64,000 nucleotides of DNA from contig DVED01000156.1 of the NCBI GenBank assembly GCA_015295945.1, positions 1-64,000 on the forward strand, in the 5' to 3' direction. Made by a program: the position numbers and the translations under genes. Each line of letters opens with the position of its first letter. Position 1 is the first letter of the stretch. Below, piece by piece: positions 14,224 through 41,831 of this stretch. Source of the stretch: Oscillatoriales cyanobacterium M59_W2019_021 (lineage in GTDB: Bacteria > Cyanobacteriota > Cyanobacteriia > Cyanobacteriales > Geitlerinemataceae). The notes beneath the pieces were generated by a model. That model was given only the letters and a program-made list of their open reading frames with translations, was not told the origin of the DNA and did not search any database.

Positions 14224-14605
14224 AAATTCAAACTAAAAATCGCTGAGAACAATTCAGAAGAGAGTGGCAAGGGAGACGAGAAGAGATCTCGAACGCAAAC
14301 TCAGACACAATACTCGAGTGTAACGAACCGTCGATGGATTCGGTAGGCAGATGCTCTCCTCTGGCCGGGAGAATTCGATGCTGCGCGCCCAGAGGGCAGT
14401 TTCTCCAATGTAGCTCGATCGACCCGCCGAGGTCGATATTGCAAGGCAACTTCCACAATCTCGCTTTCGCAAGAAAGACTGTGGTGGAAATCCGATAAGT
14501 TCTTAGACTTTTACATTTTTAATTTTTAATTTTTAATTCTGCGATCGGTACTAGGCAGAGCGACCCACCCCGTGCTACGCTCTAAAACCGAGAAGGTTGC
14601 AATTC
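14224..14605. other. Divergent intergenic region, no gene seen
   Basis: Separates cysQ (minus) from the giant glycosyltransferase (plus). AATTTTTAATTTTTAATTTTTAATT at about 14512-14537 is a short tandem AT tract. GAGAAGG at 14590-14596 is a plausible Shine-Dalgarno for the ATG at 14606. No terminator or RNA gene was recognised. Confidence 0.5.
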
Positions 14606-17600
14606 ATGACACTCGCGACTTCGACGGCAGCAATTCTAATGACCGAATGGCAGTTAAAAACCCCCGTTGCTTTTTTAATTTTCAATCGACCCGATGTCAC
14701 GGAAAGGGTTTTTGAGACGATTCGCCAAGCCAAACCGCCGAAATTGTTGGTCGTTGCCGACGGACCGAGAGCCGATCGACCGGGGGAAGCCCAAAAGTGC
14801 GCGGCAACTCGGGCGATCGTCGATCGGATAGATTGGGATTGCCAAGTTTTTAAGAACTATTCGGACACTAATTTAGGCTGTCGCCATCGCGTGGCAAGTG
14901 GCTTGACTTGGGTTTTTGAAACCGTTGAAGAAGCGATTATTTTAGAAGACGATTGCTTGCCGCATCCTAGCTTTTTTCGATTTTGTGAGGAATTACTCGA
15001 TCGATATCGCGACGACAATCGAGTGATGGCAATTTCCGGAGATAACTTTCAATTTGGAAACCGCACCCTAACCACCAGCTACTATTTTTCTCGATATATG
15101 CACGTTTGGGGTTGGGCAACCTGGCGTCGAGCTTGGCAGTTTTACGACCTGGATATGAAAGCTTGGTCGCACGTTCGGGAAACAAATTGGTTGACCCAAA
15201 AGCTACAAAGCGATCGCGCCGCTCAATTTTGGTCGTCTCTATTTCAAAATGCTTATTCGGGATTTAATACCTGGGACTATGCCTGGGTATTTGCCTGCTG
15301 GATGCGAGATGGATTGGTGATTTTACCGAATGTCAATTTGATTTCTAATCTTGGATTTGGCGCGGAGGCAACCCATACAAAAGAAGTCAATATTTTTAGC
15401 AATATGAAAGCGGAAGAAATGATATTTCCGCTCGTTCATCCAACTTCCATTGTCCGGGATATTAAAGCCGATTGGTTTACAGAAAAAAACTTGTATAGTG
15501 GTGACAATGAAAAGGTGAGTATATCGATCTCAAACCCATCTAAATCTGAAGACGATCGACAAATGGAAGATAAGGGAATAGAAGTTTGTAAGGTTTGCGG
15601 TTCTCTGTCTCGTCCCTTCGATCGAGCGACACTCCTGCAGAAATACGAGGTGAACTACTTCCAATGCTCGCAGTGTGGTTTTGTGCAAACGGAAGAACCT
15701 TATTGGCTTGAAGAAGCCTATTCTAGCGCGATCGCCAGTAGCGATGTAGGATTGGTCGCACGGAATTTGATGTTTTCCCAAATTACCAGTCGTTTAATCT
15801 TTAGCTGCTTTCATCGCCAAGGAAAATTTTTAGATTATGGCGGTGGATATGGTTTATTCGTTCGTTTGATGCGCGATTTGGGATTAGATTTTTATTGGCA
15901 CGATCGATATGCCTCGAATTTATTTTCCCAGGGATTTGAAGTAGAAGACTCTGACGATCGACGGTTTGAACTGGTAACGGCTTTTGAGCTATTCGAGCAT
16001 TTCGCAAATCCGCAGCAAGAAGTAGAACGGTTACTGAAATTTTCCAAAAACATTTTATTCAGTACCGAACTACTCCCAAATACCAATCCCAAACCCCACG
16101 AATGGTGGTACTATGCCACTCACGAAGGTCAGCATATCTCACTCTACACGCCAAAAGCGCTATCAATTCTCGCTCGGAAATTTAACTTGAATCTCTATTC
16201 CAACGGTCAAAACTTGCATTTGCTAACGGAAAAGACGATCGATCCGAATTTATTCCAACGATCCGTTCAATACCAACCCCCTCAATCGGTACTTCCTTCG
16301 CGCATCCCTCAAGATTATCAAGCAGCCATTGCCAGAATCGAACGTCAAAAAACAACACTTAATATCGGAACGAAGAAGATCGAAATGAAGTCTCAAGATC
16401 GAGTTAAAATTTTAATCGATGCCGTTTTCTTTCAACTTTATCAAACGGGTATCGCTCGGCTATGGAGATCGTTACTCGAAGAGTGGTCAACCGGAGATTT
16501 TGCCAAACAGATTCTCGTTCTCGATCGCGCTGGAACCGCACCGCGAATTCCCGGAATCAAGTATCTTTGCCTTCCTCGATACGACTATAACAATACAGAA
16601 GCCGATCGGCAAACACTGCAAAAGATTTGCGATGAAGAAGCGATCAATATTTTTGTTTCTTCATATTATACAACTCCGGTTACCACTCGATCGGTTTTCA
16701 TGGCTTATGACATGATTCCCGAGATTGCTGGATATAACCCGGAAAATCCCATGTGGCGAGAAAAAAAATACGGCTTAGAACACGCTTCATCGTACATTGC
16801 CATTTCCGAAAATACCGCACAAGATTTAGTTCGGCTATTTCCGCAGATCGATCGAGACTCCATAACTGTATCGCATTGTGGAGTTAGTTCTGTCTTTTCT
16901 GCGGCAAGTTCGACTGAAATTGAAAGCTTTAAACAGAAGTATGGAATCTCTAAACCCTACTTTATGCTGGTCGGGATGAGAGTGGGTTATAAGAATGCGA
17001 TTTTATTTTTCAAAGCATTAAATGAATTAGAAAACAAACACGAATTTGAAATTGTCTGTACGGGTGGGGGACCGCAGCTAGAGCCAGAATTTCAACCGTA
17101 CATTTCCGGTATTAAAGCTCATATGGTGCAACTGAGCGATGAAGACTTGCGTACTGCCTACTCGGGAGCCGTTGCCTTAGCTTTTCCTTCCCAATACGAG
17201 GGTTTTGGATTACCCGTTTTGGAGGCGATGGCGTGTGGATGTCCGGTGATTACCTGCCGAAAATCTTCGCTGCCAGAAGTTGGCGGAAATGCCGTTATTT
17301 ACGTGGACGAACAAGATGTCGCGGGGATGGCAAATGCCTTGCGCGAAGTCCAAAAAGCTGAAGTTCGTAATGCTTTAATAACTGCGGGTCTTGATCGCGC
17401 CAAGCAGTTTTCTTGGTCAAAGATGGCAAATCGAGTCAGTGAAGCTTTAATTAAAGCTGCTGGTTGCTCTACCTCATCTGTAAGTTCTTCACCTGTATTC
17501 TCCGATGGACTCTTAACTCAAATTCAAGCGTATCAACAAAATTCTCTCGATCGCAATTCTCTTCCAATTTTACAACAAGCTCGCAAAAAGCTGGCTCAAT

Positions 17601-20269
17601 ATTGGCTGAATTTACCTGCGGATCGACTTGAAAGTGAATATCAAAGTGAATTGGGAAAACTTCATTTAGCGTTCTGGAATAGCGGCTTTAAAAATGAGTT
17701 ACGAACTGAAGAAGAAAAGCTAATTGCTACACAAATATCTGCAAAAGTTGCAAAAGGATTTAATGAGTTGGATGCGATCCAAGCATTGATTGCTGCCACA
17801 TTATATTTCTATCCCCACCAACTTTCGATACAATACCAACGAGCGCCAATTCCCAACTGGTTTGCGGCATCTTACCTGCAATTCATGTTTGAATCGCCGC
17901 GTTTGTTTCAAGAACTGGGAGAAGTCGATCGCTATGCTGATTATTTCCACGGTTGGATCGATTATCTTCACGGTAATATTACCAGCAATCCCGATTTTGA
18001 GGTTTGGAAATACGTTTCTTCAGTGTTTGCCAACCAAGCCAATTTAACGCCGTTATACTTTAGTGGCAGCGATTTAAAACAAGAACAAAGCCAGCGATCG
18101 CAAATTCTCGAGTTGTATCTGAAGCAAAATGGCTGTCAACTCGACTATACGTTCCCAGAACGATCGACCACTCGATCCAAAATTCGGTTGGGAATTCTCT
18201 GTCAAAACTTTTATCCTTCGGCAGAAACTTTTACCGTTCTTCCGGTATTTGAACATCTCGATCGCGATCGCTTTGAAGTCTATCTCTATGCTTTAGATGT
18301 TGGAAATACATCCTCCGAACAGTTAGTGCGCGATCGATCGGATAAGTTCGTCCATTTAAGCGATAAAAATCTCGATAGTCTTGTGCAAACTCTACGTGCT
18401 GACGACTTAGATATCATTTTAATTGGTAGTAATATTACTGCGCGTTCTTACCCGCTAACCTTACTATCCATGCACCGCTTGGCTCGAATTCAAACTGTTT
18501 CTCTTGCCGATCCCGTTACTACGGGAATGCGAAATATTGACTATTATATTGCCGGGAACTTAACTGTTTCTGACACTGCACAACAATCTTATCAAGAGAA
18601 ATTAGTAACGATCGACGGTTCCGGTTTGTGCTTCCGCTTTCCTCCCGATCCCGCACCCACTCTCAATCCTACGCGCCAAAGTTGGGGAGCAAACGAGGGG
18701 ACGACGATCTTTATTTCCGGCTCGAATTTTCGTAAAATTAACCCCGAAGTTCGTCATACTTGGGCAAAAATTCTCGCTGCCGTTCCCAACTCAATTTTAG
18801 CGTTATATCCCTTCGGACCGAATTGGGGTCGCCATCCTCAATTAGAACTGCCATTTTACCAAAATTTACAAGCGGTTTTCGCGCAATATGGCATCGCTCC
18901 CAATCGGTTAGTTTTAATCAAAACACTTCCCAATACCGCCGATATTCGGAAATGTTTGGAAATTGCCGACATTTATCTCGATTCTTATCCCTATTCCGGT
19001 GCAGCATCGGCACTCGATCCTCTCAAAGTTCATTTACCGATCGTGACGATGGAAGGTCGAGAACTGCGCCATCGACAATCGGCAGCATTATTAAAAGAGT
19101 TGCAAATTCCTGATTTAATTGCTCGCAGCGAATCGGAGTATATTCAGTTAGCCGTTTCTCTGGGAACAAATCCTCAGTTACGCCAACAGAAACGGATGGA
19201 CATTCAACAGAAGATGCGGCAAACTCCCCAATTCTTGGATAGTCGATCGTACTCTGAAAAAATGGGAGCGTTGTTCCAGAAACTTTTCCGCGAGTGGCAA
19301 TCGCCGGGAAGCAAATTGACGATCAAATCCAACGTTTCTCAGTTTCCCACTCAAATCGGTCGAATTGAAGAAGATCGATCGCCACTAACACCGCAACTTC
19401 TCGATCGCCTTTCCGGTTGCCTCAACCTCTATCAAATCGATCCGTCCGATCGCACGACGATTTCCGAACTGATGCCATTGCGGCGAAAATTAGCCGAACA
19501 TTTATTAACGATAACGCCTCATGAATTAGAAAATCTTTATCAAAGTGAAGTGGGAAAAGCTTATCGAGCGTTACTTAAAAGTGGCATTCAAAAACAACCG
19601 AATGATAATAACGATGGACTCTTCGTACAACAGTTAACCCAACAAGGTGTAGGCTTAACTAATCCTCAAGCTGTTAATGCTTTGATGGGAGCGATGTTGT
19701 ACTACGCTCCGGGAACGCTGAAAGTTCAAAACTATCGCGATCGCCTGCCGAAATGGTTAATTGAAGATTACGAGCAAGTGTTTGAAAGCGATATCTCCAC
19801 ATCGTCCTCTTCTCAACCTCAAGTTGCCAATTCTCCAGAGATTTCCAATTTACCTCAGCTTTCGATCGAATTTCTCAATCGTCTTTTAGGTTGTGTCAAT
19901 CTCTACGAAATCGATCCCTCAGAACCTTCGATTATTTCCGAATTGCATCAACTCCGCCGCCAGCTTTCCGAATATTGGCTGAAAGTTCCCACGGATGGAC
20001 TGGAAACTCTGTATAAAGCAGAAGTCGGTCGGCGTTACCAAGCCTTGCTAAAAAGCGGTTTTCAAAAAGAATCGATTCCTGAAACCGATCGCACTTTCGT
20101 ACAGGAAATTACCCAAATTGCTTCTAGTTCCGCTCACCCACAATCGCTCAATGCGATGTTAGCAGCAATGTTGTATTATACTCCCAGCCAATTAAAAATC
20201 CAGAACGCGCGCGATCGCCTGCCGGGATGGTTAATCGAGGATTACGAACGAGTTTTCGAGCAGTTATAA
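14606..20269 (+). CDS. Giant multidomain glycosyltransferase/methyltransferase with repeated helical modules
   Basis: About 1887 residues from the ATG at 14606, chosen over a TTG at 14597 because of the Shine-Dalgarno GAGAAGG. Domains: 10-300, GNT-I-like nucleotide-sugar transferase (TPVAFLIFNRP, ILEDDCLPHPSFF with an acidic DXD-type motif); 325-560, methyltransferase with paired CxxC (CKVCG, CSQCG) and SAM loop LDYGGGYGLF; 600-955, GT4 domain with EGFGLPVLEAMACG; 965-1110, helical module A; 1190-1570, SPINDLY/OGT-like (GT41) domain with DIYLDSYPYSGAASALDPLK; 1595-1730 and 1750-1887, helical modules B and C. Likely role: several successive steps in surface glycan or glycoprotein synthesis. 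No membrane segment. Acceptor unknown. Confidence 0.88.
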   Translation: MTLATSTAAILMTEWQLKTPVAFLIFNRPDVTERVFETIRQAKPPKLLVVADGPRADRPGEAQKCAATRAIVDRIDWDCQVFKNYSDTNLGCRHRVASGLTWVFETVEEAIILEDDCLPHPSFFRFCEELLDRYRDDNRVMAISGDNFQFGNRTLTTSYYFSRYMHVWGWATWRRAWQFYDLDMKAWSHVRETNWLTQKLQSDRAAQFWSSLFQNAYSGFNTWDYAWVFACWMRDGLVILPNVNLISNLGFGAEATHTKEVNIFSNMKAEEMIFPLVHPTSIVRDIKADWFTEKNLYSGDNEKVSISISNPSKSEDDRQMEDKGIEVCKVCGSLSRPFDRATLLQKYEVNYFQCSQCGFVQTEEPYWLEEAYSSAIASSDVGLVARNLMFSQITSRLIFSCFHRQGKFLDYGGGYGLFVRLMRDLGLDFYWHDRYASNLFSQGFEVEDSDDRRFELVTAFELFEHFANPQQEVERLLKFSKNILFSTELLPNTNPKPHEWWYYATHEGQHISLYTPKALSILARKFNLNLYSNGQNLHLLTEKTIDPNLFQRSVQYQPPQSVLPSRIPQDYQAAIARIERQKTTLNIGTKKIEMKSQDRVKILIDAVFFQLYQTGIARLWRSLLEEWSTGDFAKQILVLDRAGTAPRIPGIKYLCLPRYDYNNTEADRQTLQKICDEEAINIFVSSYYTTPVTTRSVFMAYDMIPEIAGYNPENPMWREKKYGLEHASSYIAISENTAQDLVRLFPQIDRDSITVSHCGVSSVFSAASSTEIESFKQKYGISKPYFMLVGMRVGYKNAILFFKALNELENKHEFEIVCTGGGPQLEPEFQPYISGIKAHMVQLSDEDLRTAYSGAVALAFPSQYEGFGLPVLEAMACGCPVITCRKSSLPEVGGNAVIYVDEQDVAGMANALREVQKAEVRNALITAGLDRAKQFSWSKMANRVSEALIKAAGCSTSSVSSSPVFSDGLLTQIQAYQQNSLDRNSLPILQQARKKLAQYWLNLPADRLESEYQSELGKLHLAFWNSGFKNELRTEEEKLIATQISAKVAKGFNELDAIQALIAATLYFYPHQLSIQYQRAPIPNWFAASYLQFMFESPRLFQELGEVDRYADYFHGWIDYLHGNITSNPDFEVWKYVSSVFANQANLTPLYFSGSDLKQEQSQRSQILELYLKQNGCQLDYTFPERSTTRSKIRLGILCQNFYPSAETFTVLPVFEHLDRDRFEVYLYALDVGNTSSEQLVRDRSDKFVHLSDKNLDSLVQTLRADDLDIILIGSNITARSYPLTLLSMHRLARIQTVSLADPVTTGMRNIDYYIAGNLTVSDTAQQSYQEKLVTIDGSGLCFRFPPDPAPTLNPTRQSWGANEGTTIFISGSNFRKINPEVRHTWAKILAAVPNSILALYPFGPNWGRHPQLELPFYQNLQAVFAQYGIAPNRLVLIKTLPNTADIRKCLEIADIYLDSYPYSGAASALDPLKVHLPIVTMEGRELRHRQSAALLKELQIPDLIARSESEYIQLAVSLGTNPQLRQQKRMDIQQKMRQTPQFLDSRSYSEKMGALFQKLFREWQSPGSKLTIKSNVSQFPTQIGRIEEDRSPLTPQLLDRLSGCLNLYQIDPSDRTTISELMPLRRKLAEHLLTITPHELENLYQSEVGKAYRALLKSGIQKQPNDNNDGLFVQQLTQQGVGLTNPQAVNALMGAMLYYAPGTLKVQNYRDRLPKWLIEDYEQVFESDISTSSSSQPQVANSPEISNLPQLSIEFLNRLLGCVNLYEIDPSEPSIISELHQLRRQLSEYWLKVPTDGLETLYKAEVGRRYQALLKSGFQKESIPETDRTFVQEITQIASSSAHPQSLNAMLAAMLYYTPSQLKIQNARDRLPGWLIEDYERVFEQL

Positions 20270-24484: not shown

Positions 24485-27400
24485 TTAACGACCTTTTCTC
24501 AAAATGGCGATAAATTCAGCTTCGTTACTTTGCAGGCACTCGAGTTCAAAGGGATAGGGAAGTTCCTGTTGACAGTACGTCAGAAATTCGGTAAAGGCTT
24601 CTGGCGTCCAAACATGGAAGTGAATGCTAAAGTCCATATCGACGAGCAAAAGTCGCAGGCGTTCGGATAGCTGGGTTTCCGGAACCCGATCAACCAATCG
24701 CACGTATTCTTCAAAGTGTTGAATTTGCGAAGTTTCCGGTCCTTCTCGATCGTCGCGGATCAGATGTTCTAACGTGGTGACGGGACGATCGCGATCGAAG
24801 GTATATCGCTTATCGGGAATTGCCAGATAAATCGTGCCGCCAGGTTTGACCACGCGCAGGTAATTTTTCAGCGTGGCGATCGGATTTTGGCAGTGTTCGA
24901 GCATATGATTGGCGATGACAAAATCCACGGAAGCATCGGGAATCGTTCCCAAAACTTCCCCATCATCGATGATATCTACATCGACTAACGGCAACTCGTT
25001 CAGTTCGGGATATTGCATCCGCAAATCGAACACCGAAAGACGATCAACGTAGCGAACTTTGACGGTTTCCGGTACTTGCAAAGGAGAATGCAGCGCACCC
25101 ACTTCGATGCCTTCTCCTTGGAGATATTGCGCGGCAATGGCACGGCGAACCCGATCGGCTTTGGCTTTGGGATCTTCGACTTCAGGTTCGGCAACGGTCG
25201 CGATTTCTTCTACTCGATTAAGTGTTTTTTTTTCCGAGGTTGCCATCCCGTTTAACTGCGGGTTGACAATTTCTATTTCGGTTAATTCTTTGAGATCTTT
25301 TTCTTTTAAAGTAGCGGCGATCGCACCGTTCGATTCCGATAGTAAAGCACCGAAAGGATTGCTATCCACTTCTATTTCATCAGGACGAGAAGCCGAATTT
25401 TGTGCCACCTCTGGATCGGTTAACTGCGAAGGATCGAACTCAACGGCGATCGAAGGGGGAAGTTCGTTAATGCTATAATCTTCTCGCAACCGCGTTAAAT
25501 TGGGATTGTAACACGGATCGTTATCGAGATATTTCTTCCACCGACTCCGTAAGATATTGGCTTCTTTTGCCAATCGCGCCAGTTTTTCCGGTGTATCTTC
25601 GTATCCGCGACTCTTTGATTCGTAATGGTATAAAACGACGTGGGGTAGGTAAATATTGCGGTAGCCGCGATCGACTAATTTCAAACAGAAATCCACATCG
25701 TTATACGCCACCGCCAGCGTTTCATCTAATCCGCCAACTTCGTCAAACACTTCTCGCCGACACATCAAACACGCACCCGTCACCGCCGAGAAATTATTCA
25801 CCGTTTTAACTTGACAAACATACCCTGGCGTGTCTTTCGGAAAAGCGCGATGGCTGTGTCCGGCAACGCCGCCGATGCCTAACATAATTCCCGCGTGTTG
25901 AATCGTATCGTCTTCGTAGAGAAGCAACGCACCAACCGCACCAATTTCCGGTCTTTGCGCCTGTTCTACCATCGCTTCTAACCAGTCTGGAACTAAGACT
26001 TTTGTATCGTTATTTAAAAAGAGTAAATAGTCTCCCGTGGCTTGGCTGACCCCAAAGTTATTAATCGTGGGATAGTTAAAGGGAATATCGAAAGGATAAC
26101 ACTTAAATCGATCGGGTTCTCGTTGCGTCCATCGCGCGATAATGTCCGCCGTTTCCGCTTCCGTACTGCCGTTATCCACCACCACCACTTCATAATTGGG
26201 ATAGGTCGTTTGCGCGAAAATAGAACTCAAGCAGCGATCGAGTATTTCCCCTAAATTGCGGGTGGGAATAATAATGCTGACTCGCTTGTAGTCGCGAATT
26301 TGATAGCGAACGGTATAGTTGCCAAAATATCCCGGAACGTCAAGAACCGTTCCCGGTTCACCGCGACGTTCGAGTGCCTCGGTAATGGCTTTTTTCGCCG
26401 CATCGTAAGCATAAGTTTTTACCTCTTGGTTTCCCGTTGCCGTCGATTCCGCATGCAGCCGCCAATGGTAGAGAATTTTAGGAATATGGTAAACTTTCTC
26501 CGTTTTTTCCGTCAGCCTCAACACCAAATCGTAGTCTTGGCTGCCTTCAAATCCCACCCGAAATCCGCCAATTTCGTTAACAAGCGATCGGCGATAAACC
26601 CCTAAATGACAGGTATACATCCGCGACAAAAACGAATCCGGACACCAATCGGGTTTGAAGAACGGGTGCATGAGTTGGTTATTCTCATCCACCTTATCTT
26701 CGTCGGAATAAATCATATCGGCATCGGGGTATTTATTGAGCAGTAATACCACCTCGTATAGCGCATCGGGAGTGATTAAATCATCGTGATCTAACAGTGC
26801 GATAAAGTCTCCCGTTGCCAGCGCGATCGCCGCATTGGAAGCGCGAGAAATATGTCCGTTTTCTTGACAAAACGTAACTTTAATTCGAGCATCTTTTGCA
26901 GCATATTCCTGTAAAATAGGTTTGATATGCGCCGCCGTGGAAGCATCGTCAGCTACGCACAATTCCCAATAGGGATAAATTTGATTTAAAACCGATTCGA
27001 TCGCATCTCGCAGAAACTTCTCCGGCGTATTGTAAACGGGAACGATAATGCTAATTGTGGGTTTGTAGCGAAACGTCGGCACGGTATCCGCCATTTTTCG
27101 CAAGTCAGCGGCACGGGGAAAATGCTGTGCCAGCCACTGCTGGTATGCCAAATCGTGTGCCGGAACGGCAACAACGGGAACCTGAGAACTTGGGGACAAT
27201 TTTCCGGCGATTTTCTGCCGCGTTTTCCCTAATGCTGCTTTCAATCCTTGTTGTCGGGAAACGTCAAAAAAAGCCTTGCCTTTCGATTTAATTTTACCTA
27301 ACGGTGCTTTTAACTTAAACCACAAGGTTCGCAATTTCCAGAACTTGGTATTTTCCATCGCCTGAATTTGGTTTCGTGCCTCTTGCAAATGGATTTGTAA

Positions 27401-29455
27401 CTGTTCGAGTGCCGAAGCTGTTTGATGGAGTTGCTGGTGAACCTGCTGATTTTCCAATCGCGACTGATAGAGTTGTTGGTGAGTTTGTTGAGCGTTTAAA
27501 ATCGATTCGTGCAACCGTTCGTGGGTTTTTTGTAACTCAATTCTGGCTTGATTTAACTGTTCGTGAGTTTGCTGCGATTCTAAAATCGATCGATTCAACC
27601 GTTCGTGGGTTTGCTGCGACTCCGTTCTGGCTGCATTCAACTGTTCGTGTGCGTTTTGAACGTCGCTCAAGGCTTGACGCAATCGTTCGTGAGTGTGTTG
27701 CGATTCCAGCCGAGTTTGATATAATTGTTCGTGTGCAGCTTTTAAATCTGCTTCGAGTTGTTTCTTTTGCCGTTTGTATTCTTCTAACTCCGCTTTAATA
27801 ATTTCACTATTCGATCGCTCGGCAAGTAATTGAGCTTCCTTCGTTGCTAGAACTTCCACAAAATTGGTCTCGTATAAATCGAGATGTTTGGCACAAATAT
27901 ATTGAATCAGCCGATGTCGATTTTCCGGTAGATTGCACCGACTCACCATCGAATCGAGGCGGAAGCGGTATTGAAATAGCACTTCGGGAAGGTGAGAAAA
28001 CTTCCAGCCTTTCTCCGCTGCCATCAGCCAAAAATCCCAATCTTCATACCCCAATCGATCGGGAATATTGCTGTCATATCCGCCGCAATCTTCCCAAACT
28101 TGTCGGCGAAACACCGCACAAGCATCGATATAGTTCCCTTTGACAATTAAATTGAGATCGAAATCGGGAACTTCGCGAACTTCTTGCTTATCCCCGAAAA
28201 TTTCCATATCCCCGTAGACGATTCCTACATCGGAATTTGAATCTAAAATCTCGATCGCCTTAGTAATATACTGAGGATAAATTTTGTTATCTGCATCTAG
28301 TGGCAAAATGTAGCGTCCTTTTGCCTGTCGAATGCCAATATTTCTCGCCTCTGCCAATCCCACATTCTTAGGAGTGTCGATAATATTGTAGTTCCGTTTT
28401 CTCAAATAATTCAGAACTTTCTCCGTAACTGGATCTCGCGAGCAATCGTTTACAACAATCAACTCGTAAACAGATTCTTGACAGTTTTGAACGCTGGCGA
28501 TCGCTTCTAGTAAATACTCCCCTTGGTTGTAGCAAGGAATGATGACAGAAACAGCAATTTGAGACGATGAGGTAGATGATGGCATGGATTGGACTTCGGG
28601 AGTTTTACTGGCAAGAGATAAGGGTAAACTTTCTGGGAAGTTTTTGGCCATCTCGATCGGTTGAGTGGCGTACGAACTGGGAATGTCGGCACTGCGGTCT
28701 AGATTGGACAACAAATCGAGATATTGGGGAGTTCGATCGCCGATTGTTTGAATGAGGGGATGGCTGGTTTTTAAGGTTCCAAATAATCGAGAGTTGTAAA
28801 GTTCTTTCAGGTTTTCGGGATTGGGATTGGTAAGATTTAAGTTGAATTTGGTTTGCAGTCGATCGACCAGTAAACTGGGGTTTTCTAAAATTGAATTGAT
28901 ATTGACCAGCAAACAGCGATCGGGATGGCGATCGTAAAAATTCAGCAAATGGCGGTTGTAAAATGCCCAAATTTGGAGTGCGTAATGCGGTCGTTCGTGG
29001 AAGGCTACACTGTGGAGGCGAACGATGGAATCAACCACATCCCAAGGATAGCGATACACGAACAAATATCTCGCTTCGGGTAATAATTCGTCCCAAAAAT
29101 CGAGAAGTAACGAAGTTCTCGGATCTTTCCAACCCCACAAATTTCGTTCTTCGGGTTGCCGACGATCAATTAAAGCTTGCGCCATTTCTCGATAATCGGT
29201 CAATTTAGCGCGATCGATCGTTTCGCTTTGGGTCCATCCCCAATCTTGCCATCCCGCCTCTTCTAGGTTACAACACGCTGGCAAAATCGATCGCTGGAAC
29301 TCGACAAAATCCACATCTTCAAAGTAACCTTTGGGATTGTGTTTATCCGCTTCCAGCAAGTTATTTCCCAGATCGATGCCGAGATTTTGAATGAAGGATG
29401 CCATCAGGGAAGTCCCCGACCTGTGCATTCCTGTAATAATTAAAACCTCAGACAT
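24485..29455 (-). CDS. Sulfotransferase / GT2 / coiled coil / GT2-GT2 / methyltransferase fusion protein
   Basis: 1656 residues. Domains: 1-230, PAPS-dependent sulfotransferase with the 5'-phosphosulfate loop TGMHRSGTSLM; 300-530, GT2 (SVIIPCYNQGEY, LPLDADNK); 552-680, coiled coil made of nine 14-residue units; 684-710, tail motif MENTKFWKLRT; 798-1030, GT2 (SIIVPVYNTPEKF, LLDHDDLI); 1055-1325, GT2 (SIIIPTRNLGEIL, LLFLNNDTKV); 1440-1656, class I methyltransferase (IANHMLEHCQNP, VKPGGTIYLAIPDKR). Likely builds, sulfates and methylates a surface glycan in the cytoplasm before ABC export by the adjacent wzm/wzt. The coiled coil suggests oligomerisation or a spacing role. The upstream methyltransferase gene is 59 bp away with a dispersed repeat between. 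Confidence 0.9.
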   Translation of the reverse strand: MSEVLIITGMHRSGTSLMASFIQNLGIDLGNNLLEADKHNPKGYFEDVDFVEFQRSILPACCNLEEAGWQDWGWTQSETIDRAKLTDYREMAQALIDRRQPEERNLWGWKDPRTSLLLDFWDELLPEARYLFVYRYPWDVVDSIVRLHSVAFHERPHYALQIWAFYNRHLLNFYDRHPDRCLLVNINSILENPSLLVDRLQTKFNLNLTNPNPENLKELYNSRLFGTLKTSHPLIQTIGDRTPQYLDLLSNLDRSADIPSSYATQPIEMAKNFPESLPLSLASKTPEVQSMPSSTSSSQIAVSVIIPCYNQGEYLLEAIASVQNCQESVYELIVVNDCSRDPVTEKVLNYLRKRNYNIIDTPKNVGLAEARNIGIRQAKGRYILPLDADNKIYPQYITKAIEILDSNSDVGIVYGDMEIFGDKQEVREVPDFDLNLIVKGNYIDACAVFRRQVWEDCGGYDSNIPDRLGYEDWDFWLMAAEKGWKFSHLPEVLFQYRFRLDSMVSRCNLPENRHRLIQYICAKHLDLYETNFVEVLATKEAQLLAERSNSEIIKAELEEYKRQKKQLEADLKAAHEQLYQTRLESQHTHERLRQALSDVQNAHEQLNAARTESQQTHERLNRSILESQQTHEQLNQARIELQKTHERLHESILNAQQTHQQLYQSRLENQQVHQQLHQTASALEQLQIHLQEARNQIQAMENTKFWKLRTLWFKLKAPLGKIKSKGKAFFDVSRQQGLKAALGKTRQKIAGKLSPSSQVPVVAVPAHDLAYQQWLAQHFPRAADLRKMADTVPTFRYKPTISIIVPVYNTPEKFLRDAIESVLNQIYPYWELCVADDASTAAHIKPILQEYAAKDARIKVTFCQENGHISRASNAAIALATGDFIALLDHDDLITPDALYEVVLLLNKYPDADMIYSDEDKVDENNQLMHPFFKPDWCPDSFLSRMYTCHLGVYRRSLVNEIGGFRVGFEGSQDYDLVLRLTEKTEKVYHIPKILYHWRLHAESTATGNQEVKTYAYDAAKKAITEALERRGEPGTVLDVPGYFGNYTVRYQIRDYKRVSIIIPTRNLGEILDRCLSSIFAQTTYPNYEVVVVDNGSTEAETADIIARWTQREPDRFKCYPFDIPFNYPTINNFGVSQATGDYLLFLNNDTKVLVPDWLEAMVEQAQRPEIGAVGALLLYEDDTIQHAGIMLGIGGVAGHSHRAFPKDTPGYVCQVKTVNNFSAVTGACLMCRREVFDEVGGLDETLAVAYNDVDFCLKLVDRGYRNIYLPHVVLYHYESKSRGYEDTPEKLARLAKEANILRSRWKKYLDNDPCYNPNLTRLREDYSINELPPSIAVEFDPSQLTDPEVAQNSASRPDEIEVDSNPFGALLSESNGAIAATLKEKDLKELTEIEIVNPQLNGMATSEKKTLNRVEEIATVAEPEVEDPKAKADRVRRAIAAQYLQGEGIEVGALHSPLQVPETVKVRYVDRLSVFDLRMQYPELNELPLVDVDIIDDGEVLGTIPDASVDFVIANHMLEHCQNPIATLKNYLRVVKPGGTIYLAIPDKRYTFDRDRPVTTLEHLIRDDREGPETSQIQHFEEYVRLVDRVPETQLSERLRLLLVDMDFSIHFHVWTPEAFTEFLTYCQQELPYPFELECLQSNEAEFIAILRKGR
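27371..27760 (-). repeat. Coding tandem repeat, 42 bp (14 residues) per unit, about nine units
   Basis: The protein reads LYQTRLESQHTHER, LRQALSDVQNAHEQ, LNAARTESQQTHER, LNRSILESQQTHEQ, LNQARIELQKTHER, LHESILNAQQTHQQ, LYQSRLENQQVHQQ and LHQTASALEQLQIH, then a final degenerate unit. Each is two heptads with Leu at position 1 and H/Q at the end. The DNA repeats every 42 bp with drifting similarity, as expected from internal duplication. Confidence 0.8.
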
Positions 29456-37315: not shown

Positions 37316-38656
37316 ATGAAAGTTTCGGTTTTGGGCAAATTGTCTCTGGTTTTAATTCCCTTAACTTTGGCAACTGCTGCCGTTTCTCCCCCACCCAGTT
37401 TCAGTCAGTCGAACGCCTCAAACTGGGTCGCGAACGTTAACCAGACGCCTCGCCAAGGGACGGATGGCAGACCCGGACGGGAGGGTCGCGACGGAACCCC
37501 TCAGACCATTTTTGCCAACGGAACGGCGGTCAACCTCGATCTGTCGGGTGGCGATGGCACAAACGGAGAAGACGGCAGCGACGGCGAAAATATGCGAAAC
37601 TGCTTACTTCCCGATCGACCCTCGTTCGATATCAACGCACCGAATGGGGGAAATGGCGGTCGCGGTGGCGATGGCGGTCGAGGGGGAAATGGGGGAGATC
37701 TGACGGTTTACTATACCAATTTAGACGATTTGCAGGCAATTTCCGTTCGATCGCCGGGAGGACGCGGTGGATTAGGCGGACGGGGGGGACGCGGCGGCGA
37801 GGGGTGTCGGTGCGATCGCCGCTCTTGGGAACGAAACGATCGACGCTACCATTGTAACGACGGAAGTTATGGCAGCGATGGTGCAGACGGAAGGGATGGC
37901 GACGATGGCAGTTTGGGGAGGCTGTGGATTGTCAATAGTACGGAAGAATTGCCCCCGGAAGTGCCGACGCTCACCGTGCCGCTTGCCGATTTGCGCGATC
38001 GCACTTTCGATCTCTCCCGCCATATTTGGGAAACTAAACTCGGTGCCACTGCCTTACTCGCATCAGGTTCAATCATTGACGACGAATACAACGAGTTTGT
38101 CAAACGGTTGGAAGGATCGTTTCAGTTGGCGTGGCAGGCAGATCGACCTCTGACGGATTTTACCGGGGATGCGACGATCGAGATGCAAAATGACGGGAGG
38201 ATCGAGATCGAGTTTCCCGAAGACGTTTGGGTGGAAGGTCGAACGCAACAAGACACCGATCGCACCCTGTTTACCGTAGAAAATGCGATCGCCAAACGTG
38301 AAGCGACTCAGCTACAAGTTGCCGAATTTTCCGGGAACGGTACGGACTTACAACTGGCACTGGTAGATTTAGCGCAAAAATCCGACCTCATCGATACGAA
38401 GGTACAAATCGAATACCGTTCCACCGATCGAGATAGCGGACGAGAACGCTACCGCACCCGCTACGAAGGAGAAATCCCCGCCGAACTCCTCCACCGCAAC
38501 TACAATCGGTTTGTGATGGATTTGGGCAAATTACCGATCGATTCTCGCTTTCTCCAACCCGGCATTTCCGTGGAAATCGAATTGACTTTAACGCGATCGT
38601 TCGGCGGACGTTCGGCACAACAGGAAATTAACTGGCAAGGCGAGATTAAGCGATAG
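37316..38656 (+). CDS. Secreted glycine-rich, collagen-like protein
   Basis: 446 residues with an N-terminal signal peptide (about 1-31, hydrophobic core LSLVLIPLTLATAA). Residues about 45-205 are packed with short glycine triplets (GTDGRPGREGRDGTP, GGNGGRGGDGGRGGNGGD, GGRGGLGGRGGRGGEG, GSDGADGRDGDDGS). This is collagen-like but interrupted by loops with cysteines (CLLPDR, CRCDRR). The C-terminal 240 residues are a mixed beta domain (residues about 210-446) with no family I recognise. Probably exported to the surface or matrix. A promoter with an operator-like palindrome lies just upstream. Confidence 0.78.
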   Translation: MKVSVLGKLSLVLIPLTLATAAVSPPPSFSQSNASNWVANVNQTPRQGTDGRPGREGRDGTPQTIFANGTAVNLDLSGGDGTNGEDGSDGENMRNCLLPDRPSFDINAPNGGNGGRGGDGGRGGNGGDLTVYYTNLDDLQAISVRSPGGRGGLGGRGGRGGEGCRCDRRSWERNDRRYHCNDGSYGSDGADGRDGDDGSLGRLWIVNSTEELPPEVPTLTVPLADLRDRTFDLSRHIWETKLGATALLASGSIIDDEYNEFVKRLEGSFQLAWQADRPLTDFTGDATIEMQNDGRIEIEFPEDVWVEGRTQQDTDRTLFTVENAIAKREATQLQVAEFSGNGTDLQLALVDLAQKSDLIDTKVQIEYRSTDRDSGRERYRTRYEGEIPAELLHRNYNRFVMDLGKLPIDSRFLQPGISVEIELTLTRSFGGRSAQQEINWQGEIKR

Positions 38657-38735: not shown

Positions 38736-39236
38736 TTATTCCTTGACCGAGATCGTGTAAATCCGATCGGCTAGAATTTTAGCGGAATCCTCGAGCGGGG
38801 CGATATCGGCTGCCGACCAGGGGCGAATTGCCTGACAGTGATGGGCGACCAGCAATCCCCACAGTCCATCCGGGGTGAGAATGGGTGCAACTAGGTTCGA
38901 TCGCACGTTCATACTTTCCAGAAATTCTCGATGGCAAGGACTCAGAGGTTCTGTAGCAATGTCGTCAATAGCTCGAATTCGTCCGGCTTCGTACAGGGTG
39001 GCATATTCGTTGTTAAAACAGTCGTCGGCACCGGTGGAACCGTAAATCGACAACTCGATCGAGCTTAAAGACTCGAAGGTCACGCGACCTTTCCATTGGC
39101 GATAGAAATAATACAAAACCACGCGATCGACTTGCAGGGTCGTTCTCAGTCGATCGAGGGTCGATTGAATCAAAACATCTTTCTCTAATGATTTTGACAG
39201 GCGATCGTTAAGCTGGTAAAGCAGTGGGTCAGACAT
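38736..39236 (-). CDS. Single-GAF protein, DXCF-type cyanobacteriochrome-like
   Basis: 166 residues, essentially one GAF domain. It has the features of bilin-binding cyanobacteriochromes: DDCF (residues 71-74, matching D-x-C-F), GRIRAIDDI (85-93), the canonical chromophore pair Cys101-His102 (SPCHREF), VRSNLVAPIL (111-120) and LWGLLVAHHC...RPW (125-140). Cys73 would be the second, dark-state cysteine, giving blue/green-type photocycles. There is no kinase, GGDEF or methyl-accepting output domain, so it would signal by protein contact or act as a non-photoactive GAF. Monocistronic, facing the collagen-like gene. Confidence 0.75.
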   Translation of the reverse strand: MSDPLLYQLNDRLSKSLEKDVLIQSTLDRLRTTLQVDRVVLYYFYRQWKGRVTFESLSSIELSIYGSTGADDCFNNEYATLYEAGRIRAIDDIATEPLSPCHREFLESMNVRSNLVAPILTPDGLWGLLVAHHCQAIRPWSAADIAPLEDSAKILADRIYTISVKE

Positions 39237-39536: not shown

Positions 39537-40088
39537 TTGGAAATACTGCGTCGCATTTCTCGGGCGATCGATCGGTTTAACGAAAGTTTGGGTCGCCTCA
39601 TTGCTTGGCTAATTCCGGCGATGATTCTCGTCGGCGTCTGGAACGTTATCGGTCGCTATCTGGGTAAAGCCGTCGGTCAAAACCTCAGTTCTAATACGGC
39701 GATCGAAATTCAATGGTATCTGTTTGCGATCGTCTTTCTGTTGGGGGCGGCTTATACCCTCAAACACGACGCCCACGCCCGCATGGACGTTCTCTACAGT
39801 CGCTGGCGTCCTCGACAACAAAAACTCGCCGATTTAGCCGGAACGTTACTGTTCCTCCTCCCCTTCTGCATTGTCACCCTCTGGTTTACCTGGAGACCCG
39901 TCCTCAACTCCTGGCGCATTTGGGAAAACTCTCCCAACCCCGGTGGTTTGCCCGTCTACCCCATTAAAACGGTGGTTTTGGTCAGTTTGGGGTTGCTGAT
40001 CGTTCAGGGCATTTCCGAGGCGTACAAAAAATGGTCGAGTCTCGATAATTCTAATTCACCCCTGGAGGATGTCGATGGCGATCGTTGA
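39537..40088 (+). CDS. dctQ: TRAP transporter small permease (DctQ type), TTG start
   Basis: 183 residues, four membrane helices typical of DctQ: LIAWLIPAMILVGVWNVIGRYLG, EIQWYLFAIVFLLGAAYTLK, a third near 95-115 and a fourth near 140-160. The HDAHARMDVLYSRW loop between helices 2 and 3 is the classical DctQ signature. The start is TTG at 39537, supported by the ribosome-binding site GAGAGAGAGG 7 bp upstream and by the absence of an earlier ATG in frame. It overlaps dctM. The substrate of the system cannot be told without the binding protein. Confidence 0.88.
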   Translation: MEILRRISRAIDRFNESLGRLIAWLIPAMILVGVWNVIGRYLGKAVGQNLSSNTAIEIQWYLFAIVFLLGAAYTLKHDAHARMDVLYSRWRPRQQKLADLAGTLLFLLPFCIVTLWFTWRPVLNSWRIWENSPNPGGLPVYPIKTVVLVSLGLLIVQGISEAYKKWSSLDNSNSPLEDVDGDR

Positions 40089-41415
40089 TCTTCTAAGTCC
40101 GGCAATGTTCGTCGGGGCATTGGGACTCCTCCTGTTGGGCTATCCGGTGGCATTTTCCCTCGGTGCCGTTGCCATCCTCTTCAGCATCATCGGCAGTCTG
40201 TTCGGCGTCTTTAATTGGACGCTATGGGGAACGCTACCCCTACGGATTTTCGACGTGATGTCCAACTACACCCTCCTCGCCATCCCCTATTTCATCTTCA
40301 TGGGGGCGATGTTGGAAAAGTCGGGCATCGCCGAACGCCTCCTGGAAACCATCGGCATTCTCTTCGGACGGATTCGCGGCGGACTTGCCCTGGCGGTTGT
40401 CGTCGTGGGGGCGTTGCTGGCAGCTACCACGGGGGTGGTGGCGGCAACGGTGGTGGCGATGGGTTTAATTTCCCTCCCCGTGATGTTGCGTTACGGCTAT
40501 AGCAAGGAACTGGCAACCGGGGTTATCGCCGCCTCGGGAACTTTGGGGCAAATTATCCCCCCTAGCGTTGTTTTAGTAGTCTTGGGCGATCAATTGGGCG
40601 TTTCCGTTGGTGACTTATTTATCGGGGCGATGCTGCCGGGATTGTTGATTACCGGGGCGTACGCGATTCATATTGCGATCGCCGCTTGGCTGCGTCCGGA
40701 TGTTGCCCCGGCATTGCCCCCCGAAGTTCGCAATATCGGCGGCAAGGATTTGGGCAAGCGAGTTCTCCAGGCAATGGTTCCGCCGTTGGTGCTGATTTTG
40801 TTGGTCTTGGGCAGCATCTTTTTCGGCATGGCCACGCCAACGGAAGCGGGGGCAGTGGGCAGTTTGGGGGCAGTTCTCTTGGCTGGGGCAAATCGCCAAC
40901 TCAGTTGGGAATCCATCCGCCAAACCTCCGATGCCACCCTGAGAATTACCGTCATGGTGATGTTTATTTTGGTGGGTTCGGCAGCATTTAGTTTGGTGTT
41001 TCGCGGGTTGCAAGGGGCGCACGTTGTCTCCAGTTTTCTGGGGAATTTACCGGGCGGACAAACGGGATTTTTATTCGTTAGTATGCTAACGGTTTTTATC
41101 CTGGGATTTTTTATCGATTTTTTTGAAATTGCCTTTATTGTCATTCCCTTATTTGTACCGATCGCCCAAACTTTCGGTATGGATCTGGTGTGGTATGGTG
41201 TCGTTTTAGGCGTCAACTTACAAACGTCTTTCCTCACACCACCCTTTGGATTTGCCCTATTTTACCTACGCGGCATCGCCCCACCCGAAGTCTCCACCGG
41301 AGATATCTATCGCGGTGTTATCCCCTTTATCTGCTTGCAACTTGTCATTTTAGTTGCGGTGATTGTCTTTCCTCAAATCGTTAACTTCTTACCCTCGATC
41401 GCCAATACACTTTAA
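40075..41415 (+). CDS. dctM: TRAP transporter large permease (DctM type)
   Basis: About 446 residues with some twelve membrane helices. It carries out Na+-driven uptake together with DctQ and a periplasmic DctP. Visible family segments include YTLLAIPYFIFMGAMLEKSG, GGLALAVVVVGALLAATTGVVAATV, ASGTLGQIIPPSVVLVVLGDQ and the conserved second-half EIAFIVIPLFVPIAQTFGMD. Two ATGs are possible (40069, 40075). GGAGG at 40064-40068 is spaced six bases from the second, which is therefore chosen. It overlaps dctQ by 14 bp, showing translational coupling. No dctP gene follows. Confidence 0.93.
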   Translation: MAIVDLLSPAMFVGALGLLLLGYPVAFSLGAVAILFSIIGSLFGVFNWTLWGTLPLRIFDVMSNYTLLAIPYFIFMGAMLEKSGIAERLLETIGILFGRIRGGLALAVVVVGALLAATTGVVAATVVAMGLISLPVMLRYGYSKELATGVIAASGTLGQIIPPSVVLVVLGDQLGVSVGDLFIGAMLPGLLITGAYAIHIAIAAWLRPDVAPALPPEVRNIGGKDLGKRVLQAMVPPLVLILLVLGSIFFGMATPTEAGAVGSLGAVLLAGANRQLSWESIRQTSDATLRITVMVMFILVGSAAFSLVFRGLQGAHVVSSFLGNLPGGQTGFLFVSMLTVFILGFFIDFFEIAFIVIPLFVPIAQTFGMDLVWYGVVLGVNLQTSFLTPPFGFALFYLRGIAPPEVSTGDIYRGVIPFICLQLVILVAVIVFPQIVNFLPSIANTL

Positions 41416-41489: not shown

Positions 41490-41831
41490 ATGACCAATAA
41501 ACTTTGGATTTTATCGCTAGCTTTAATAACAACGATCGTCCTCAATGCAAAGGTGGGGCGATCGGATACGGGAAATGTCGATCGGCAAACTTGTAGTTAT
41601 AACGGCATTCCGTTATTCGGCAAAATCGAAATTGTCGAAAGTTCGGGCGATATTGCCGTCCAAATTGTCGATTCGTTTCCCGATCTCAATGTTAAAGTGG
41701 TCGAGAACTTCCCAGATGAATGCGGAAAATGGGAGTTTGTCGATTCTTTCCCGGATTTTACCGTGGAGTTCGTCGAATCTTCTGCCGACATAGATATTAA
41801 ATTTGTCGATTCTTTCCCCGGTATTCCTTGA
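41490..41831 (+). CDS. Small secreted beta-repeat protein (VDSFPD repeats)
   Basis: 113 residues. A signal peptide (about 1-24, ILSLALITTIVLNA) is followed by about six 11-residue units: GKIEIVESSGD, IAVQIVDSFPD, LNVKVVENFPD, GKWEFVDSFPD, FTVEFVESSAD and IDIKFVDSFPG, with a two-residue insert (EC) after the third. Alternating hydrophobic/charged residues suggest a regular beta fold on the periplasmic or outer side. From memory, similar VxSFPD-repeat proteins are widespread and uncharacterised. It ends 48 bp before the symporter gene and may be co-transcribed. Confidence 0.7.
   Translation: MTNKLWILSLALITTIVLNAKVGRSDTGNVDRQTCSYNGIPLFGKIEIVESSGDIAVQIVDSFPDLNVKVVENFPDECGKWEFVDSFPDFTVEFVESSADIDIKFVDSFPGIP

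Follow-up and report, generated by a model that had tools for sequence, protein, structure and literature searches.

A putative stand-alone DXCF-type cyanobacteriochrome in an Oscillatoriales cyanobacterium is a member of a widespread single-GAF family

Introduction

Can a single GAF domain with nothing attached to it serve as a complete photosensor? The question is raised by a short gene within the window, by which we mean the whole 64,000-nucleotide stretch analysed here (Oscillatoriales cyanobacterium M59_W2019_021, contig DVED01000156.1, positions 1 to 64,000). In most descriptions, cyanobacteriochromes (CBCRs) are photosensory modules attached to kinases, cyclases or chemoreceptors, yet such fusion to an output domain, although usual, does not define the photosensory family. 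A first-pass annotation had proposed that the reading frame at 38736–39236 encodes a lone CBCR-type GAF with a DDCF and an SPCH cysteine and no output domain. Our analysis bears directly on the gene, its motifs, the predicted fold of its product, the conservation of that product within a stand-alone family that forms one clade, and the chromophore-synthesis genes of the same genome.

Results

The open reading frame list and its translation place a 166-amino-acid protein with an ATG start on the minus strand at 38736–39236. Pfam labels the protein as GAF only (E=1.6e-17). Its best match by phmmer among PDB sequences is the GAF domain of a dual sensor histidine kinase (6oap, 5e-24), followed by miRFP670nano and TePixJ (1.5e-19). 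Pfam and these CBCR GAF matches thus bear out the single GAF domain of the first-pass annotation. Both proposed cysteine motifs are also present in the translation. The DDCF motif (D71-D72-C73-F74; 39015–39026, minus strand) carries the second, or DXCF, cysteine, and the SPCH motif (S99-P100-C101-H102; 38931–38942, minus strand) carries the canonical bilin-attachment cysteine. A third conserved cysteine, C134 (38835–38837, minus strand), occurs in 109/109 aligned family rows and in 28/28 multi-domain DXCF GAFs.

The protein ends where its GAF domain ends. Translation and Pfam reveal neither a PAS nor a PHY domain, so that the GAF-PHY arrangement of knotless (Cph2-type) phytochromes is absent, and no kinase, GGDEF or MCP output domain was found in the window frame or in the relatives surveyed. 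The C-terminal helix and tail (residues 142–166; 38739–38813, minus strand; helix 142–164 in the AlphaFold2 model) have no output domain beyond them. The frame stops directly past this last GAF helix, and the frames of its relatives stop at the same point. Its neighbors are different genes on the plus strand, one downstream (37316–38656) and the TRAP transporter gene DctQ upstream. The proposed lack of an output domain therefore stands. By its sequence, the protein has the features expected of the DXCF subfamily of CBCRs, namely a bilin-type GAF, the canonical cysteine, the DXCF cysteine, and a lone GAF as the sensory unit.

Comparison with solved structures points the same way. The alignment with TePixJ, a DXCF-type blue/green CBCR (3vv4, 4fof, 4glq), has no gaps across residues 12–151 and a constant offset of 421. 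Taking the TePixJ residue numbers to be those of established knowledge, C73 falls on C494 and C101 on C522, and D71, R86, H102 and H132 correspond to D492, R507, H523 and H553. Identity is only about 25%, and the window protein, unlike TePixJ, contains the family-specific stretches LYYFY, VTFESL and GSTG. The TePixJ GAF is moreover embedded in a methyl-accepting chemotaxis protein, whereas the window GAF is alone. With the family alignment as input, AlphaFold2 gave a model of the window protein with pLDDT 84.9 and pTM 0.79. The model is poor only at residues 51–70, just before the DXCF motif, where block means fall to 45–52; the missing chromophore may account for this low confidence. Nearly all of the top PDB matches to the model in Foldseek are CBCR GAFs, including TePixJ (4fof, 5.9e-12; 4glq, 2.1e-11), whose blue-absorbing form is among them; the predicted fold is thus that of TePixJ. 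A single CBCR GAF can function as a free-standing bilin protein, as illustrated by miRFP670nano (6mgh), which shares the architecture of the window protein. However, miRFP670nano was engineered, from the NpR3784 GAF, and it lacks the DXCF cysteine that the window protein possesses.

The window protein is not an isolated candidate. Among 293 genomes of the same order, matches at E<=1e-36 were found in 151, and about 141 of the 293 carry a short-frame orthologue that is 48–63% identical. Matches in long multi-domain proteins are clearly set apart, starting at 46% identity and 137 bits. A search of 386 genomes across the cyanobacterial phylum yielded a single match per genome at E<=1e-42 in 56 of them, with frame lengths of 165–213 amino acids; these orthologues have about equal lengths and come from dozens of genera. 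A scan of named genomes recovered members from Nostoc, Fischerella, Scytonema, Leptolyngbya, Phormidesmis, Nodosilinea, Okeania, Pleurocapsa and others, with identities up to 66%. The orthologue is absent from many genomes, including most others of the window's own family, the Geitlerinemataceae.

Copy number is usually one per genome. A few genomes have two copies, and in both G090 (L139, L144) and G107, which belong to the same genus (g56), the second stand-alone copy is the more divergent. Two longer relatives, of 341 amino acids in G104 and 260 in G121, were considered as possible fusions; this was rejected, since the surplus lies ahead of the likely start, where the frame simply stays open, and contains no domain. 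A family member also occurs on a contig titled Candidatus Gracilibacteria bacterium SU_1_2 (JAAUUT010000105.1), which is probably cyanobacterial sequence that was misbinned or misnamed.

Conservation was counted over 110 stand-alone members. C101 and H102 are present in all 110, and C73 in 109. The sole exception, from Dendronalium phyllosphericum CENA369 (L121, 6379–6945), has serine in its place (DNSF), so the second cysteine is not a strict requirement of the family. This protein provides a natural single-cysteine comparison within the stand-alone group.

We also compared 46 stand-alone rows with 28 multi-domain DXCF GAFs. D71, F74, Y82, R86, H102, N114, W126, H132, W140 and both cysteines are common to the 28 multi-domain domains and nearly invariant in the family. 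Multi-domain DXCF GAFs from this genome and related ones (for example L002, contig C137) have both cysteines and the pocket residues as in the window protein, to which they are 34–46% identical, but they lie inside proteins of several hundred to more than 1000 amino acids. The stand-alone family is marked off from them by the LYYFY and VTFESL stretches and by G69 and R103. At position 161, just before the stand-alone end, 42/46 stand-alone rows have Ile and the window protein has Thr; 26/28 multi-domain domains have Gln here, leading into the linker. We read the missing Gln as the lack of a linker into an output domain. Phe at position 54 is likewise family-specific (42/46, versus Val or Ala in 27/28 multi-domain DXCF GAFs). 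A prediction of photoproduct color from F54 as the beta-2 tuning Phe was dropped because its identity with the published tuning Phe could not be established. A maximum-likelihood tree built from 84 GAF domains separates the 46 stand-alone rows from the multi-domain DXCF GAFs by a branch with support 100/100.

The genome also encodes the means of making a chromophore. PcyA is present (L135, which scores 357 bits with an NCBIfam equivalog model whose cut-off is 206), as are two heme oxygenases and two further ferredoxin-dependent bilin reductases that adjoin each other. With heme oxygenase and PcyA both encoded, the chromophore precursor should be available. Together with the architecture, the predicted fold, and the two cysteines and pocket residues conserved family-wide, this supply supports the original reading of the gene as a CBCR candidate.

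Gene context is informative in one lineage. In Nostocales, the GAF gene commonly lies directly after ndhH on the same strand (24 loci). There it belongs to a recurrent neighborhood made up of an oppositely oriented rsmH-like gene, ndhH, the GAF gene, and glyoxalase-like, methyltransferase-like and 3-hydroxyisobutyrate-dehydrogenase-like genes, names that were read by eye from the sequences. Nostocales members with an upstream ndhH fall inside the single stand-alone clade of 46 rows; Alr3356, discussed below, is itself outside the tree. At the family loci compared outside Nostocales no conserved neighbors were found, and the window likewise lacks those of Nostocales. We therefore set gene context aside as a general hint to a partner, the repeated neighborhood being confined to that lineage.

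The Nostocales arrangement nevertheless identifies a counterpart that has been described. In Anabaena sp. PCC 7120, ndhH is alr3355 (PMC8147232), and alr3356 is annotated as 'similar to phytochrome'. Alr3356 has been described, citing Ma et al., as a phytochrome-like sensory photoreceptor of the CBCR family with a chromophore-binding GAF (PMC4788461). By EMSA, the same study detected binding of FurA to the alr3356 promoter; turning furA off raised transcript levels 3.94-fold, which identifies FurA as a repressor (PMC4788461). Within the literature searched, Alr3356 is named in that study alone. Gene order and this description make the window protein a very probable orthologue of Alr3356 (Anabaena/Nostoc sp. 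PCC 7120), although the window gene lacks the adjacent ndhH that Alr3356 shares with family members of other Nostocales. As a lead only, Alr3356 may be one of the seven PCC7120 GAFs of Ma et al. 2012. Since Alr3356 has already been called a CBCR, this kind of protein is not new; the window protein adds a member to a widespread orthologous family.

Discussion

On this evidence, we consider it highly probable that the window protein is a bilin-binding dual-cysteine photosensor, that is, a stand-alone DXCF-type CBCR. In DXCF CBCRs, the canonical cysteine holds C3-1 of the bilin, and the DXCF cysteine adds to C10 and aids isomerization of phycocyanobilin (PCB) to phycoviolobilin (PVB); photoconversion reverses the second bond (PMC11284453, PMC5578081). 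By analogy with these proteins, from which we carry over both binding and photocycle, C101 would take the C3-1 carbon of the PCB that heme oxygenase and PcyA supply. Addition of C73 to C10 would then produce a violet/blue-absorbing 15Z dark state and promote PVB formation. On illumination, the 15,16 bond would isomerize to 15E and the C73–C10 bond would open, yielding a longer-wavelength photoproduct. Since the residues for DXCF photochemistry are present, a dark state and a photoproduct of this kind are to be expected.

How such a protein would signal is a matter of conjecture. Because an output domain occurs in no member, signaling in trans is the simplest reading, and we give it a little better than an even chance. 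Without an output domain or linker helix, the GAF would most likely dock on a partner in a light-dependent manner; both this mode and the partner are our guess. We infer it from an absence, since outside Nostocales no conserved neighbor suggests a partner. The linkage to ndhH in Nostocales and the control by FurA in Anabaena are the only leads to one.

The strongest alternative, which we nonetheless regard as unlikely, is that the protein binds bilin without acting as a light switch. It would then be a carrier, a buffer or a sensor of bilin levels tied to iron or heme status, and any photochromism would be incidental. The absence of output domains throughout the family fits this idea, as does the repression of alr3356 by an iron regulator, bilins being derived from heme. 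However, a mere carrier would not need the DXCF cysteine, which is known for color tuning and PVB formation and has been kept in all but one of the members counted. It is far less probable that the GAF resembles a CBCR in looks only and holds another ligand, such as a cyclic nucleotide, or none; Pfam, it is true, gives nothing narrower than GAF, but the two cysteines for attachment and the residues of the CBCR pocket are conserved, the sequence and fold matches are bilin GAFs, and the Anabaena counterpart has been called a CBCR in print. The least credible alternative is that a multi-domain CBCR lost its output module and left this protein as a broken remnant: many multi-domain CBCR GAFs do exist in the same genome, the closest 43% identical, but the family forms a single old stand-alone clade with 31 invariant columns in a 55-sequence alignment, orthologues of similar length in dozens of genera count against decay family-wide, and the DNA downstream of the window gene holds no trace of an output domain.

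A dual-cysteine photosensor thus remains our preferred reading, and the family to which it belongs has wider implications. First, there may be, though with less than even odds, an old, dedicated lineage of diffusible dual-cysteine photoreceptors that, in contrast to other CBCRs, never carries an output domain. Its members would dock on a partner in trans depending on light, and might in Nostocales be tied to iron status through FurA and to NDH-1. Second, a mostly single-copy lineage that consists of a sensory module only and spans many cyanobacterial genera raises the question of its interlocutor. Finally, a protein of this type would be a ready compact photoswitch for engineering.

Elsewhere in the window

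Several other features of the window were recorded. On the plus strand at 39537–41415, DctQ and DctM TRAP transporter genes stand in tandem, and no DctP binding-protein gene was recognized in the adjacent open reading frames scanned. The gene at 37316–38656 (plus strand) encodes a 446-amino-acid protein whose N-terminus is signal-like and which contains a Gly-rich, collagen-like stretch (GDGTNGEDGSDGE...), and that at 41490–41831 (plus strand) a 113-amino-acid protein made up mostly of VDSFPD / VESSADI repeats; neither has a Pfam match. Two very large multi-glycosyltransferase proteins of 1890 and 1656 amino acids (14597–20269, plus strand; 24485–29455, minus strand) flank mutS, close to a gene for a Wzt-type ABC transporter, and the area looks like a surface-polysaccharide region.
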